Assembly (NCBI GenBank): GCA_016868035.1
Contig: VGID01000006.1
Span: forward strand, 1-64,000
Source of the DNA: Betaproteobacteria bacterium
GTDB lineage: Bacteria; Pseudomonadota; Gammaproteobacteria; Burkholderiales; SG8-41
DNA length: 64,000 bases
Reading direction: 5' to 3'
A program made the translations under genes and the position numbers. Under the pieces are notes generated by a model, which saw only the letters and a program-made list of their open reading frames with translations, was not told the origin of the DNA and did not search any database. Numbering within the stretch: the first letter of the stretch is position 1; each line of letters opens with the position of its first letter. Shown here piece after piece: positions 7,499 to 52,022 of the stretch.

Positions 7499-7939
7499 AT
7501 GGCTGTGAGCCTGCGGGCGCGGGCGCTCAAGCTGCTCGCGCGACGCGAGCACTCGCGCGCGGAGCTCGCGCGCAAGCTCGCTCCTCACGCCGCGGATCCC
7601 GAAGAGCTGGAGTCCCTGCTCGACCTGCTCGAGCGGTGCGGCTGGCTCTCCGAGGCAAGAGTGGTCGAGCAGGTGGTCCACTCGCGGCGTTCCCGGTTCG
7701 GCCTGCGGCGCATCGAGCGCGAGCTCGCGCAAAAGGGCGTGTCGTTGGAAGCGATCGCCGCGGCGCTGCCGGAGCTGCGTGCGGGGGAGCTCGCCGCCGC
7801 GCGCACGGTGTGGCGCAAGAAATTCGGCCGCCAGCCGCGCAGCATGGCGGAACGCGCGCGGCAGGCGCGCTTCCTGCAGGGCCGCGGGTTTGCGCCCGAT
7901 GTCGTGTACAAGGTGATCAAGGGCGTCGACGAGCAGTGA
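7499..7939 (+). CDS. recX: Regulatory protein RecX
   Basis: Small helical protein that binds RecA filaments and limits their extension. 146 residues in three tandem three-helix repeats: SLRARALKLLARREHSRAEL opens the first, LLERCGWLSEARVVEQVVHSRRSRFGLRRIERELAQKGV spans the second, and RQARFLQGRGFAPDVVYKVI closes the third; all are family signatures. It follows recA and precedes alaS as in many Proteobacteria. The leader is repeat DNA without a clear ribosome-binding site. The TGA stop (7937-7939) touches the next repeat array (AAGGCGG units). Confidence 0.94.
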   Translation: MAVSLRARALKLLARREHSRAELARKLAPHAADPEELESLLDLLERCGWLSEARVVEQVVHSRRSRFGLRRIERELAQKGVSLEAIAAALPELRAGELAAARTVWRKKFGRQPRSMAERARQARFLQGRGFAPDVVYKVIKGVDEQ

Positions 7940-7996
7940 AGGCAGAAGGCGGAAGGCGGAAGGCGGAAGGCGAGGGGCGCTCGTCACCAGTCACGA
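7936..7996 (+). repeat. Heptamer array downstream of recX, interrupted by an insertion
   Basis: Units AGGCAGA, AGGCGGA, AGGCGGA, AGGCGGA follow the recX stop (7940-7970). A second family, GTCACCA GTCACGA, begins at 7983 and is interrupted at 7996; it resumes as GTCACGC at 8264 on the far side of the palindromic element. Joining the two sides restores a continuous heptamer run, which defines the insertion point. Confidence 0.8.
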
Positions 7997-12109: not shown

Positions 12110-12145
12110 GCGTCCGCGTCAGCAATACGCGAGCAAGCGCAACTG

Positions 12146-12297
12146 CCGATCAACGCAGATGAACGCAAATGACAAGACGGTAAGCGGTAAGCGGTAAGAT
12201 TGGAGTTAGTTTTTTTCCCCGAAGCTCTCCGCTCGCCGCTCACTGCTTACCGCTCACGATATTTTGATCGGCGTGCATCGGCGTTAATCGGCGGTTC
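12146..12297 (+). repeat. Nested inverted repeat: decamer arrays enclosing heptamer arrays
   Basis: Outer left array has 10-base units (GATCAACGCA GATGAACGCA, 12148-12172); its inverted partner GATCGGCGTGCATCGGCGTT with a third unit lies at 12266-12293. Inside these sits a heptamer pair: GGTAAGC units (12178-12199) and GCTTACC/GCTCACC-type complements (12229-12256), with a T-rich loop. Two different repeat families are therefore arranged concentrically between convergent genes. Confidence 0.85.
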
Positions 12298-13734: not shown

Positions 13735-13985
13735 ATTATCAGCCGCCGATGAACGCCGATACACGCCGATGAATCAAAAGACCTTAAGCCATAGAGAGCA
13801 CAGAGAACACAGAAAAAAACACAAATAGAATCTGAACCGCAGAGCACACCGAGAGTAGCGGGGCGTCTTTTCGATTCACGATTCGCGTTTCACGAGTTTT
13901 ACCCGCGTAAATCGGCGTTTATCGGCGTCCAGCGGCGGCTCGATTGCTCTTGAACACCAGTCGCCAGTCACGAGTCACCCGTCAC
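13735..13985 (+). repeat. Multi-family repeat cluster (10-mer, 9-mer and 7-mer arrays)
   Basis: This gap of about 300 bases between two minus-strand genes holds no gene. In order: decamer units GCCGATGAAC GCCGATACAC GCCGATGA (13743-13772), nonamer-like units AGAGCACAGAGAACACAGA (13796-13815) and a second similar set at 13842-13856, heptamers GATTCACGATTCGCG (13874-13888), inverted decamers AATCGGCGTTTATCGGCGTC (13911-13930), and heptamers of the CAGTCACGAGTCACC type (13959-13985) that contain the stop codon of the next gene. The decamer arrays face each other around the inner families. Confidence 0.82.
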
Positions 13986-16980: not shown

Positions 16981-17095
16981 TGCGTTCAAAGTTCAAAGTT
17001 CAATGTTCAAAGTTCGAACCGTGAAGTGCGACGCGCTCCAACCTTGAACCTTGAACCTTGAACCTTGAACCTTGAACCTTGAACCTTGAACCCGG
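16981..17095 (+). repeat. Heptamer arrays (GTTCAAA / CTTGAAC) between aldolase and FAD dehydrogenase genes
   Basis: Left array GTTCAAA GTTCAAA GTTCAAT GTTCAAA GTTCGAA (16983-17018), a short spacer, and a right array of eight CTTGAAC units (17040-17093). Spacer and both arrays closely resemble the element at 50.67-50.81 kb, including the ..CTCCAACCTTGAACC.. junction, so the two look like copies of one element. Confidence 0.9.
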
Positions 17096-41803: not shown

Positions 41804-41857
41804 GTGTAACGCCGGATCGCGCCGAGGGAAATGCAGGGGTCTGCCGTGCGAGCGAGG

Positions 41858-42030
41858 ATTGAGGAATGGGGATCGAGGATTGAGGATTGAGGATTGAGGA
41901 TTGAGGATTGAGGATTGAGGATTGAGGATTGAGGATTGAGGGAGACCGTTATCGCAGGGGGCGCGACTATCCAGTCTTCAAACCGAATCGCTCAATCCTC
42001 GATCCCCATTCCTCAATCCTCGCCGACGGC
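41858..42030 (+). repeat. Long GGATTGA heptamer array with inverted partner
   Basis: Left array of about eleven units of GGATTGA (41858-41942, with variants GGAATGG and GGATCGA at the start), a 40-base spacer, and an inverted right array of TCAATCC TCGATCC CCATTCC TCAATCC units (41990-42019). Notably the variant units GGAATGG GGATCGA of the left array are mirrored in the right array, showing that the two arms share a common order. Confidence 0.93.
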
Positions 42031-47294: not shown

Positions 47295-47918
47295 CTATCG
47301 GCTCCGGTTGCGCAGCCGCTGGCGCGCGCGGTCCATGGCGCGCGCGACAGTCGCGCGCTTCACCTCATCGGCTCGCAAGGGTCGGGCCGCGGCGCGCGCT
47401 GCGCGGTGCGCCGCGATGCGCCGGTTGCGCGCTTCGAACCGCGACCGCGCATGCGCCGCCGCCATCCTCCTCTCCTCCCGGGTCAACGCGCGCCCGGTTT
47501 CGACCATCCGAATGCAGTCGACCGGGCACGGCGCCAGGCACAGCTCGCACCCGGTACACTCGGCGGCGATCACCGTGTGCATGAGCTTCGCCGCGCCGGC
47601 GATCGCATCCACGGGACACGCCTCGATGCAGAGCGTGCAGCCGATGCACAGCGCTTCGTCGATGACGGCGACCGCCGGGAGCTGCTCGACGCCTAACGCG
47701 GGGTCAAGGGGCTGCGCCGGGACGCCGAGCAGCGCGGCGAGATCGCGGATGACGTCACCGCCGCCGGGTGGGCACTGGTTGATGCCTGCGCGGCCAGCGG
47801 CAATCGCCTCTGCGTAGGGGCGGCACCCCGCGTAGCCGCATTTACCGCATTGCGTCTGCGGCAGCAGCGCGTCGATGCGCTCAGCGAGCGTCTCGCGCAA
47901 AGTCGGTTCCGCACCCAT
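47295..47918 (-). CDS. RnfB-like iron-sulfur protein
   Basis: A 207-residue soluble ferredoxin-like protein related to RnfB/RsxB. The N-terminal four-cysteine 4Fe-4S domain [16 protein letters not shown] (with the distal Cys in INQCPPGG) is followed by a tandem 4Fe-4S ferredoxin: [16 protein letters not shown] and [16 protein letters not shown]. The N-terminal membrane helix of RnfB is missing, so the protein is probably cytosolic, and no other rnf genes are near. The C-terminal ~50 residues are Arg/Ala-rich. Likely an electron carrier with an unknown partner; such single RnfB-like proteins are common in Betaproteobacteria, often near nth. Confidence 0.9.
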
Positions 47919-47961: not shown

Positions 47962-48262
47962 AATCGACAGGATTTACAGGATTAACAGGATTGGATTGAA
48001 GGTCTAAGAGCGCCTAACAAAAACAAGAAATATTAATCGCAGATAAACGCCGATACACGCCGACCGCGATATGGTGAGCCGTGAGCGGCAAGCGGTAAGC
48101 GGAAAAATCCCGAAGATGACATTCTGCTCACCGCTTACCCCTTACTGGTTACTGTCTTGTTTTATCTGGGTGCGTTCATCTGTGTTCATCGGCGGTTTCA
48201 AGTGTATTGGGCATTTTGATAGGCGCTCTTAATCATGTAAATCCTGTTAATCCTGTCTATTC
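47962..48262 (+). repeat. Four-layer concentric inverted repeat
   Basis: The 387-base gap between the RnfB-like and ald genes holds no gene. Layer A: ACAGGATTTACAGGATTAAC and one more unit (47967-47993) against TAAATCCTGTTAATCCTG (48238-48256). Layer B: TAAGAGCGCCT (48005-48015) against AGGCGCTCTTA (48221-48231), perfect. Layer C: decamers ATAAACGCCGATACACGCCG (48043-48062) against GTTCATCTGTGTTCATCGGC (48174-48193). Layer D: heptamers GTGAGCCGTGAGCGGCAAGC plus (48074-48102) against inverted TGCTCACCGCTTACCCCTTA plus (48125-48152). Each family sits inside the previous one, with matching order on both sides. Confidence 0.93.
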
Positions 48263-48289: not shown

Positions 48290-48316
48290 GATCACGATTC
48301 ACCGTTCACCGTACAC
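48290..48316 (+). repeat. Short heptamer array at the ald 3' end
   Basis: Units GATTCAC CGTTCAC CGTACAC (48294-48314) overlap the ald stop codon. On the minus strand they encode the final RRVR and the TGA stop. Confidence 0.75.
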
Positions 48317-49430
48317 GGCGTTCGACGGCTTCCAGCGGATCCATGAACTCGCGCCCGGTGTCCTGGGCGAGGCCTTTGTGCGTGACTCGTCCGCCGTGCA
48401 GCTGCAGTCCGGCGCGCAGCCCGGAATCTTGCGTGACCGCCGCGCGCAGTCCTTTCGCGGCAAGCTCGAGCGCGTAGGGCAGCGTCGCCTGGGCAAGTGC
48501 GAGCGTCGCGGTGCGCGCGACCGCGGAAGGCATATTGGGCACGCAGTAGTGGACGACGCCTTCCTCGACATAGAGCGGATCCGAGTGCGATGTCGGGCGC
48601 GAAGTCTCGCAGATCCCGCCCTGGTCGATGGCGACATCCACCAGCACCGAGCCGGGGCGCATGCGGGCGAGGTCGGCGCGGCGTATCAACTTCGGTGCGA
48701 GCTTTCCCGGCAGCAGCACGGCACCGATCACCAGGTCTGCGTCGTGCACCAGCGGCGGGAGCGACTGGGGCGTCGAGACGACTGTCTTCAGGCGCGCGCC
48801 GAACACGGCCTCGAGGTCCGTCAGCCGCGACGCGCTACGGTCCGCGAGCGTTACGTCCGCGCCCATTCCGATCGCGATGCGCGCGGCGTTCTGCCCGACC
48901 GTGCCGCCGCCGATGATCAGCACTTTCGCCGGAGGGACGCCGGGCACGCCCGCGAGCAGCACCCCGCTGCCGCCGTTTGCCATCTGCAGCGCCCACGCGC
49001 CCGCTTGCGGCGCAAGGCGTCCCGCGATCTGCGACATCGGCACGAGCAGCGGCAGCCCGCCGCGCGCATCCGTCACGGTCTCGAACGCGACGCAGCTTGC
49101 CCCCGAGGCGATCATCGCTTCAAGCAGACGCTCGTCCGGAGCCAGGTGGTGGTAGCAGAACAGAATCTGCCCGCGGCGCGCCAGCGCGAACTCGGCGCTC
49201 TGGAGCTCCTTCACTTTGACCACCATCCCGGCGCCGTACGCGTCCGCCGCCGCCGGCACGATCATCGCCCCGGCTTCGCGGTAGGCGGCATCGGGGAAAC
49301 CGACGCGCGCGCCGGCCTGCGTCTCGAGGCGCACCTCATGGCCTGCCTGCGCCAGCGCCCGCGCTCCGGCGGGCGTGAGGCCGACACGGTACTCGTGGTC
49401 CTTTACCTCTCTCGGGACGCCGATCAGCAT
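48306..49430 (-). CDS. ald: Alanine dehydrogenase
   Basis: NAD-dependent oxidative deamination of L-alanine to pyruvate, or the reverse. 374 residues with MLIGVPREVKDHEYRVGLTP, the catalytic Lys in MVVKVKELQSAE, the second catalytic region LFCYHHLAPD, the NAD fold KVLIIGGGTVGQNAARIA, and the C-terminal VDVAIDQGGICETSRPTSH and YCVPNMPSAVARTATLALAQATLPY. No signal peptide. The last four residues and the stop come from heptamer repeat units. The upstream gap to pyrD contains a short repeat. Confidence 0.96.
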   Translation of the reverse strand: MLIGVPREVKDHEYRVGLTPAGARALAQAGHEVRLETQAGARVGFPDAAYREAGAMIVPAAADAYGAGMVVKVKELQSAEFALARRGQILFCYHHLAPDERLLEAMIASGASCVAFETVTDARGGLPLLVPMSQIAGRLAPQAGAWALQMANGGSGVLLAGVPGVPPAKVLIIGGGTVGQNAARIAIGMGADVTLADRSASRLTDLEAVFGARLKTVVSTPQSLPPLVHDADLVIGAVLLPGKLAPKLIRRADLARMRPGSVLVDVAIDQGGICETSRPTSHSDPLYVEEGVVHYCVPNMPSAVARTATLALAQATLPYALELAAKGLRAAVTQDSGLRAGLQLHGGRVTHKGLAQDTGREFMDPLEAVERRVR

Positions 49431-50669: not shown

Positions 50670-50810
50670 TTGGAGTTCCGGGTTCAAAGTTCAAGGTTCA
50701 ACGTTCGAAGCGGGAACCCCGCAGCGCCGCGCTCTCCAACCTTGAACCTTGAACCTTGAACCTTGAACCTTGAACCTTGAACCTTGAACCTTGAACCTTG
50801 AACGCGGAAC
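50670..50810 (+). repeat. Heptamer arrays (GTTCAAA / CTTGAAC) upstream of the AI-2E permease
   Basis: Part of the 344-base gap between pyrD and the permease gene. Left array GGTTCAAAGTTCAAGGTTCA plus ACGTTCGAAG (50690-50710), spacer GCGGGAACCCCGCAGCGCC, and a right array of ten CTTGAAC units (50740-50803). Arrays and spacer resemble the 17.0-kb element. The rest of the gap (50535-50669) shows no gene or signal beyond AT-rich TTACTTATTTTC at 50604. Confidence 0.9.
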
Positions 50811-50878: not shown

Positions 50879-51949
50879 ATGGAAAAGCGCATCGAGCAGA
50901 TCGTGCAGATTTCCCTGATCGCGCTGCTCGTGATCGGATGCCTGCTGGTGTTGAGGCCGTTCGTCACTGCGCTGCTTTCGGCGGCGATCCTGTGCTATTC
51001 GACGTGGCCGCTGTACCGCTGCATCGAGCAGACATTGAGGGGCTGGCGCGCAACCTCCGCCCTCATCATGACGGTGCTTATCATCGTGGTGCTGGTGTTG
51101 CCGCTCGCGCTGATCGCGGCGAGCTTCCGCGACGAGATCCCGTACCTGGCCGAGCGCGTGCGCACGCTGCTCGCGGAGGGCCTGCCCGGACCGCCCGGGT
51201 GGGTGGTCTCGATACCGCTGGTGGGCGAGACATTCGATGCCGGCTGGCGCGAAATTGCGGGCAGCCAGGCGAAGCTCGCGGAAGCGTTGAAGCGGCTGGC
51301 GCAGCCGGCGCGCGAGGTCCTGGTAGCCGCCGGCATCATCATCGCCGAAGGGGTGCTGCAGTTCACGCTGATCGCGTTCATCGGCTTCTTCTTCTACCGG
51401 GACGGTGCAGCCCTGGTTCAGGCGCTGCACCGCAGTCTCGATCGGGTAGCCGGCCATCTCACGGGCGGGCTGCTGCAGACCGTGGGCGGCACCATCAACA
51501 GCGTGGTGTACGGAATCATCGGCACCGGGCTCGCCCAGGGCCTGGTGGCGCTGATCGGGTTCCTCATCGCGGGCGTGCCCGGGGCGCTGATGCTGGGGTT
51601 CCTGACGTTCTTTTTCTCCATCATCCCCGGCGGCGCGCCGGTGGTGTGGGTCGGTGCGACGATCTGGCTCTTCTACCAGGACCAGGCCGGATGGGCGCTG
51701 TTCATGGCGCTCTGGGGATTCTTCGGGATCAGCGGCATCGACAACGTGGTGAAGCCGCTGCTCATCAGCCGCGGCAGCCAGCTCTCCTTCCTGCTGGTGA
51801 TGCTGGGTGTCTTCGGGGGCGTGCTCGCGTTCGGCTTCGTCGGCGTTTTTCTCGGCCCGACGCTGCTCGCGGTCGGCTTCAACCTGATGCGCCACTGGGC
51901 GGTGCCGCAGCCCGCCGCGGGATCCCATCCGGTGCCGCCAAGGAGCTGA
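50879..51949 (+). CDS. AI-2E family transporter (PerM/TqsA-like membrane protein)
   Basis: 356-residue inner-membrane protein of the AI-2 exporter superfamily (DUF20). Eight hydrophobic segments are visible: two at the N-terminus (SLIALLVIGCLLVL, FVTALLSAAILCYS), one around residue 65, a central extracytoplasmic region, then five including LIAFIGFFFYRDG and the conserved GVPGALMLGFLTFFFSIIPGGAPVVW and PLLISRGSQLSFLLVMLGVFGG. ATG at 50879 preceded by GGAAAA is preferred to an in-frame GTG 11 codons earlier. Function in export of small molecules is uncertain for this family. A long AAGGCAG heptamer array follows the stop. Confidence 0.9.
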   Translation: MEKRIEQIVQISLIALLVIGCLLVLRPFVTALLSAAILCYSTWPLYRCIEQTLRGWRATSALIMTVLIIVVLVLPLALIAASFRDEIPYLAERVRTLLAEGLPGPPGWVVSIPLVGETFDAGWREIAGSQAKLAEALKRLAQPAREVLVAAGIIIAEGVLQFTLIAFIGFFFYRDGAALVQALHRSLDRVAGHLTGGLLQTVGGTINSVVYGIIGTGLAQGLVALIGFLIAGVPGALMLGFLTFFFSIIPGGAPVVWVGATIWLFYQDQAGWALFMALWGFFGISGIDNVVKPLLISRGSQLSFLLVMLGVFGGVLAFGFVGVFLGPTLLAVGFNLMRHWAVPQPAAGSHPVPPRS

Positions 51950-52022
51950 AGGCGGAAGGCGGAAGGCGGAAGGCAGAAGGCAGAAGGCAGAAGGCAGAAG
52001 GCAGAAGGCAGAAGGCAGGGGG
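51946..52022 (+). repeat. AAGGCGG/AAGGCAG heptamer array
   Basis: Ten 7-base units in direct order after the permease stop: AAGGCGG x3 then AAGGCAG x7 (51951-52020). This is the most regular array in the window. No inverted partner is seen; the bpt gene follows convergently. Confidence 0.92.

Follow-up and report, generated by a model that had tools for sequence, protein, structure and literature searches.

Concentric palindromes of short tandem repeats and a putative IS5-type MITE in the ald–rnfB gap of a betaproteobacterial genome

The window (the whole 64,000-nucleotide stretch that was analysed) contains an unusually structured gap between an rnfB-like ferredoxin gene and ald, both read on the minus strand and assigned by Pfam domains. 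The features of the locus are as follows.

47295–47918, minus strand: rnfB-like 4Fe-4S ferredoxin gene, the downstream gene; overlaps or abuts ald in relatives
47962–47993, plus strand: left arm of the outer palindrome, three 9-mers of the form ACAGGATT[TAG] (family A)
48005–48007, plus strand: TAA trinucleotide next to the left MITE end, presumably a target-site duplication
48008–48228, no strand given: IS5-type MITE of 221 bp with terminal inverted repeats (TIR) GAGCGCCTAACAAAA ... CATTTTGATAGGCGCTC; contains both inner palindromes
48035–48063, plus strand: left arm of the 10-mer palindrome, AATCGCAGATAAACGCCGATACACGCCGA (family B)
48074–48104, plus strand: left arm of the 7-mer palindrome, GTGAGCCGTGAGCGGCAAGCGGTAAGCGG (family C)
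48122–48152, minus strand: right arm of the 7-mer palindrome
48164–48197, minus strand: right arm of the 10-mer palindrome, ATCTGGGTGCGTTCATCTGTGTTCATCGGCGGTT
48229–48231, plus strand: trinucleotide TTA right of the MITE
48231–48261, minus strand: right arm of the outer palindrome, AATCCTGT 9-mers
48306–49430, minus strand: ald (alanine dehydrogenase/PNT domains), the upstream gene; orthologous junction found in relatives

Four concentric inverted layers lie within 301 bases of this gap (47962–48262), in the mirrored order that an earlier sequence-only reading had described. When ungapped arms are chained concentrically, the top-scoring solution is exactly these four layers, with a score of 57, compared with a mean of 10.6 and a maximum of 30 over 300 dinucleotide shuffles; the nest is real and not a product of chance. 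The outer ACAGGATTA arms (47962–47993 and 48231–48261) are 31 nt long and 87% complementary. The next arm, TAAGAGCGCCT (48005–48022 and 48214–48231), pairs at 17 of 18 positions; it had been described as a perfect 11-base arm, and the pairing is indeed perfect, but over 12 bases. This arm is the flanking trinucleotide plus the TIR rather than a repeat family. The 10-mer and GTGAGCG 7-mer layers are both present as described, but imperfect: the 10-mer arms (48035–48063 and 48164–48197) are 74% complementary over their best 19 nt and the 7-mer arms (48074–48104 and 48122–48152) 74% complementary, layer C being an imperfect heptamer array with inverted pairing of its arms. The MITE thus sits in the loop of the ACAGGATTA palindrome, the 10-mer palindrome within the MITE and the 7-mer palindrome in the 10-mer loop. 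When the MITE and one trinucleotide are removed in silico, the outer element folds as a single hairpin. Arm complementarity was rejected as a clock for the layers because baseline identity may not be equal across the families. Just outside the nest lies an additional, one-sided array of TTCACCG 7-mers (48298–48316).

The orthologous junction is empty in five relatives, compared with 387 bp in the window: the ald stop runs into the rnfB start, with a 4-bp overlap in G019, G021, G013 and G020 and a 1-bp overlap in G023. Given these empty sites, the whole nest would most simply have been gained in the lineage of the window. Identity in ald to these empty-junction relatives is only about 75%, so any order of events proposed within that lineage is provisional. 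Relatives with one to three of the layers had been anticipated in this same gap; the five examined are empty there, and partial sets occur at other loci. The pheS–pheT gap also varies between relatives. It measures 2–25 bases in 12 of them; G000, G007 and G008 have a 10-mer palindrome there, G012 and G004 each a 9-mer palindrome, enclosing 7-mers in G004, and G009 and G002 have 7-mer palindromes. Upstream of pheS, a 7-mer palindrome is present in only one of G007 and G008 (L479 and L439; 16 kb aligned), with no clean edges.

Single-strand folding of the nest lies far below that of shuffled sequences (z = −6.2 as DNA and −9.1 as RNA). The RNA value, together with the frequent position of such elements after a stop codon, could point to a selected structure, that is, a terminator, attenuator, mRNA-stability or protein-binding hairpin with a single functional stem that was lengthened layer by layer through co-evolution. 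Inverted pairs of tandem 7- and 8-mers in Geobacter metallireducens have been proposed as regulator-binding sites (PMC2700814); they resemble the present elements in being multicopy, intergenic, inverted pairs of short tandem repeats with variable spacing, but differ in sequence and in their reading as regulator sites, and nesting is not mentioned in the portion of that source available to us. A selected structure is nevertheless quite improbable for the nest, as the ald–rnfB junction lacks it in all five relatives, 12 relatives have an empty pheS–pheT gap while others hold unrelated repeat families in it, and an Rfam search returned nothing above threshold, on which ground a known RNA family was rejected.

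We read 48008–48228 as an IS5-type MITE because its TIR, GAGCGCCTAACAAAA, matches the end of an autonomous insertion sequence (IS). At 10-mer loci a dispersed composite recurs, consisting of CTTAGAGCCGGTAACAAAATCAAGAAATATTA, a 10-mer arm, a variable core, a second 10-mer arm and TTTTTGATACGGGCTCTTAG, and it terminates in the TAAGAGCGCCT arm. Across 54 copies from the own genome and the family, the ends GAGCC...GGCTC have C-TWA on their left side and TWA-G on their right, giving the target consensus C-TWA-G. The 3-bp direct flanks are identical in 25 of the 54 (shuffled pairing: mean 13.0, maximum 23 in 5,000), and the central flank base is A/A in 15, T/T in 10 and A/T in 1; this concordance indicates direct repeats, whereas A should be paired with T if the inverted repeat were simply longer. 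IS5-family MITEs (IS1031-like) have a TNA duplication, which is expected to be exact after recent insertion and to decay with age. The window MITE is the single A/T-discordant copy, with TAA on its left and TTA on its right, a mismatch that one later change would explain.

The autonomous IS was traced through a PF01609 search across eight genomes to G003, a genus relative, and not to the window's own genome. At locus L361 it has TIRs GAGCGCCTAACAAAATGA and TCATTTTGTTAGGGGCTC and a TAA at either side; its two overlapping reading frames match IS5 transposase NF033580 (E = 3.6e-40), PF13340 and PF01609; a second copy lies at L365. The window TIR equals the first 15 bases of the left TIR at L361. 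The MITE would have been moved in trans by an IS5-family transposase. It resembles IS5-family MITEs in its TIR, its 3-bp TWA duplication and the IS5 transposase in a relative; it differs in an interior that is a copy-variable stack of unrelated palindromes. The plasmid search found no relatives of the bare MITE. The IS at L361 (G003:C35, about 162–1063) lies inside a GTGACTAA array whose units contain the C-TAA-G target.

The same MITE shell occurs with very different contents. Bare copies of 50–52 bp are present in G012, G019 and G015 (L319, L320, L322, L326 and L335), and longer ones have a 10-mer palindrome alone, 9-mer CACAGAGAA palindromes or other hairpins in the loop. Among 35 MITE shells with 10-mers in the own genome, the core is a ACAGGATTA 9-mer palindrome (A) in 13, 7-mers of family C in 12, other 7-mers in 2, and plain or other in 8. 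The 12 GTGAGCG-type cores, which include the window copy, are of several kinds; the 13 A cores are mutually homologous, so that independent loop insertions are fewer than copies. Hence ACAGGATTA is outermost in the window nest and innermost at 13 loci. Outside the MITE shell lie ACAGGATTA in the window, 7-mers at L202 and CACGAAGGA 9-mers at L191. With inner and outer layers differing in this way, the nesting order is permuted between loci. Nesting is also seen as 9-mer CACGAAG arrays inside A (L071) and as CACAGA-type arrays inside A in Geothrix (L164). A 17-base left-end probe, used alone, collected 40 sites, of which 36 reach a 10-mer arm at an offset of 23–26 bases; the remaining four comprise one with a shortened 10-mer arm (L275), one nearly bare (L277) and two apparently unrelated. 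At none of the 40 does an array separate the TIR from the 10-mers. Exceptions to placement in the loop are small hairpins within an arm in G015 (L347, L353 and L351).

Other nests and loops were observed alongside these. Within the window, 12141–12296 holds a second nest with 10-mers outside and GTAAGCG 7-mers inside, without MITE ends or a ACAGGATTA layer, and the 10-mer palindrome at 13741–13940 contains ACAGAGAAC 9-mers and 7-mers in its loop. In G012, the same MITE loop occurs twice (L321 and L323), and the longer copy has an extra GC-rich inverted module in the innermost loop.

Dozens of related loci in which layers are absent, exchanged or reordered show what look like palindromes that keep inserting into each other. 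Nesting by loop insertion appears well supported, given that the layers are found separately and in other orders and that the junction is empty in five relatives; the idea of insertion into palindrome loops put forward from the sequence is thus upheld by the five empty sites and by a MITE shell that is bare, filled with 10-mers or filled with many cores, and the alternative offered with it, in which hairpins are copied into one another, is not required. We infer both the order of events at ald–rnfB and a preference for loops as such. That preference might be only apparent if an IS5-type element simply targets C-TNA-G, a motif present in arrays and loops, and insertions into arms are lost. The target consensus C-TWA-G fits such an account, as does the L361 IS, which lies in an array whose units carry the C-TNA-G motif; the account leaves the 10-mer, 9-mer and 7-mer palindromes in loops unexplained, with no such target known for them, and we consider it doubtful.

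Cores could also have been exchanged between shells by recombination or aberrant gap repair in transposition, a swapping of cassettes and not fresh insertion into loops. Shells with the same core form no clean clades, so that cores look reshuffled (in a weak tree of about 135 nt), and MITEs with unrelated internal sequence are compatible with gap-repair origins. Such exchange seems unlikely as the source of the nests, as the cores are nearly always palindromic arrays that are also found free elsewhere, and nesting occurs where there is no MITE (12145–12296, L071, L164 and the pheS–pheT gap of G004).

The favoured reading is a nest of mobile palindromes with a stepwise history, to which we assign a probability of about 75%: an A palindrome followed by a preassembled MITE trio in its loop. 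First, the ACAGGATTA palindrome would have entered the ald–rnfB junction. Second, the 221-bp non-autonomous IS5-type element would have inserted at a C-TWA-type target in the ACAGGATTA loop, with the transposase acting in trans. Third, this MITE would have arrived already bearing the 10-mer palindrome in its loop, with the 7-mer palindrome already inside the 10-mers. The inner three layers probably arrived as one transposing unit, given that the combination of MITE, 10-mers and 7-mers is found at many loci that lack the outer layer; the landing of the MITE in the ACAGGATTA loop may have been the last event here. The expectation that the innermost layer is the youngest is not supported, with this trio present elsewhere without ACAGGATTA, and ACAGGATTA innermost at 13 loci. 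Copies that have the inner layers but not the outer one, named beforehand as telling against successive insertion, do occur at non-orthologous positions; they refute a fixed age order, not loop insertion.

Inverted pairs of tandem arrays with units of 7–10 bases are found at many loci in the window. For the own genome, counts come from pattern searches and from about 430 kb of unbiased sequence; a dictionary scan of 434 kb yielded 64 inverted array elements versus 5 in the reversed sequence, its pairing being too crude for nesting statistics. The pattern ACAGGATTNACAGGAT has 27 matches in the own genome and none when reversed, and the 10-mer pattern has 2 to 224 matches in genus members versus none in the control. 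At 41852–42023, a GAGGATT palindrome has the same variant units on both arms and one arm expanded about ninefold, which we read as slippage after the inverted pair had formed. Two GTTCAAA/AACCTTG palindromes (16984–17092 and 50675–50810) each have one arm with a long run of perfect AACCTTG units, and ten near-perfect GAAGGCA units lie at a gene end (51948–52018), with a similar array at 7938–7972.

The words extend well beyond the genus. Across GTDB genomes, ACAGGATTAACAGGATT occurs in at least 118 stretches from many phyla; among the matches listed, 77 of 137 show two or more inverted units in a span of 700 bases (none for the reversed unit), and ACAGGATTAACAGGATT stretches also contain arrays of the 10-mer (5), CACGAAG (10) and CACAGAG (6), with 0 for each control. 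Also among the matches listed, two contigs filed as Methanoperedens (L097 and L118) have the ACAGGATTA palindrome, and L097 has in addition a 10-mer palindrome, with words identical to those of the window's relatives; the genes around these palindromes fit an archaeon, and a binning error is compatible with them too. Plasmid relatives of the A palindrome were found only on Thiodictyon and Spirosoma plasmids. Viral contigs, 2.9 million in all, yielded only 17 and 18 stretches with triple A or B arrays, on which count a viral origin was rejected. We can suggest only tentatively, and with more doubt than belief, that these are cross-domain selfish tandem-repeat palindromes, built from a few shared 7-, 9- and 10-base words, which would move between bacteria and archaea by an undescribed loop-favouring mechanism, accumulate inside each other and ride on MITEs. 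Formation of the nest in place, from a quasi-palindrome that underwent replication slippage and template switching, is highly improbable: slippage is evident within arrays with one expanded arm (for example, 41854–41941 and L180), but identical words are present at dozens of loci and reach into other phyla, and for the MITE layer this origin is refuted by direct-repeat flanks and a shared TIR, which show transposition.

Among known systems, IS1397, IS621, ISKpn1, ISPsy8 and ISPpu9 target REP palindromes, with IS5 among the families listed (PMC1525189). The likeness lies in mobile DNA that inserts specifically into short extragenic palindromes; here, in contrast, a MITE that carries further palindromes is the guest of tandem-array palindromes, and which element is guest and which is host changes from locus to locus. 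REP/REPIN elements moved by RAYT were rejected as an identity for the repeats, as a GTAG or CGTC foot tag is absent from the consensus arms of A, B and C and from the TIR, and gene association is weak: of three Y1_Tnp genes found, one alone is near a family A (ACAGGATTA) palindrome, at about 1.1 kb (L238, own genome, C3). TAACTGA heptamers in Beggiatoaceae, Cyanobacteria and Bacteroidetes, with suspected horizontal spread and no known mechanism (PMC4679880), are likewise intergenic heptamer arrays with a patchy distribution over distant lineages, but they are almost all direct, lie mostly upstream of start codons and use one word only. The repeat strings had no match in a relevant setting in the literature searched, and further papers could describe more.

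An odd-looking gap thereby becomes a readable stack of insertions, in which a transposable element of known mechanism serves as a reference mark inside repeat palindromes. The pheS–pheT and ald–rnfB gaps of one bacterial family are natural experiments on the gain and loss of palindromes, and the sharing of words across distant phyla, and with contigs catalogued as archaeal, raises the question of what spreads or recreates these palindromes.
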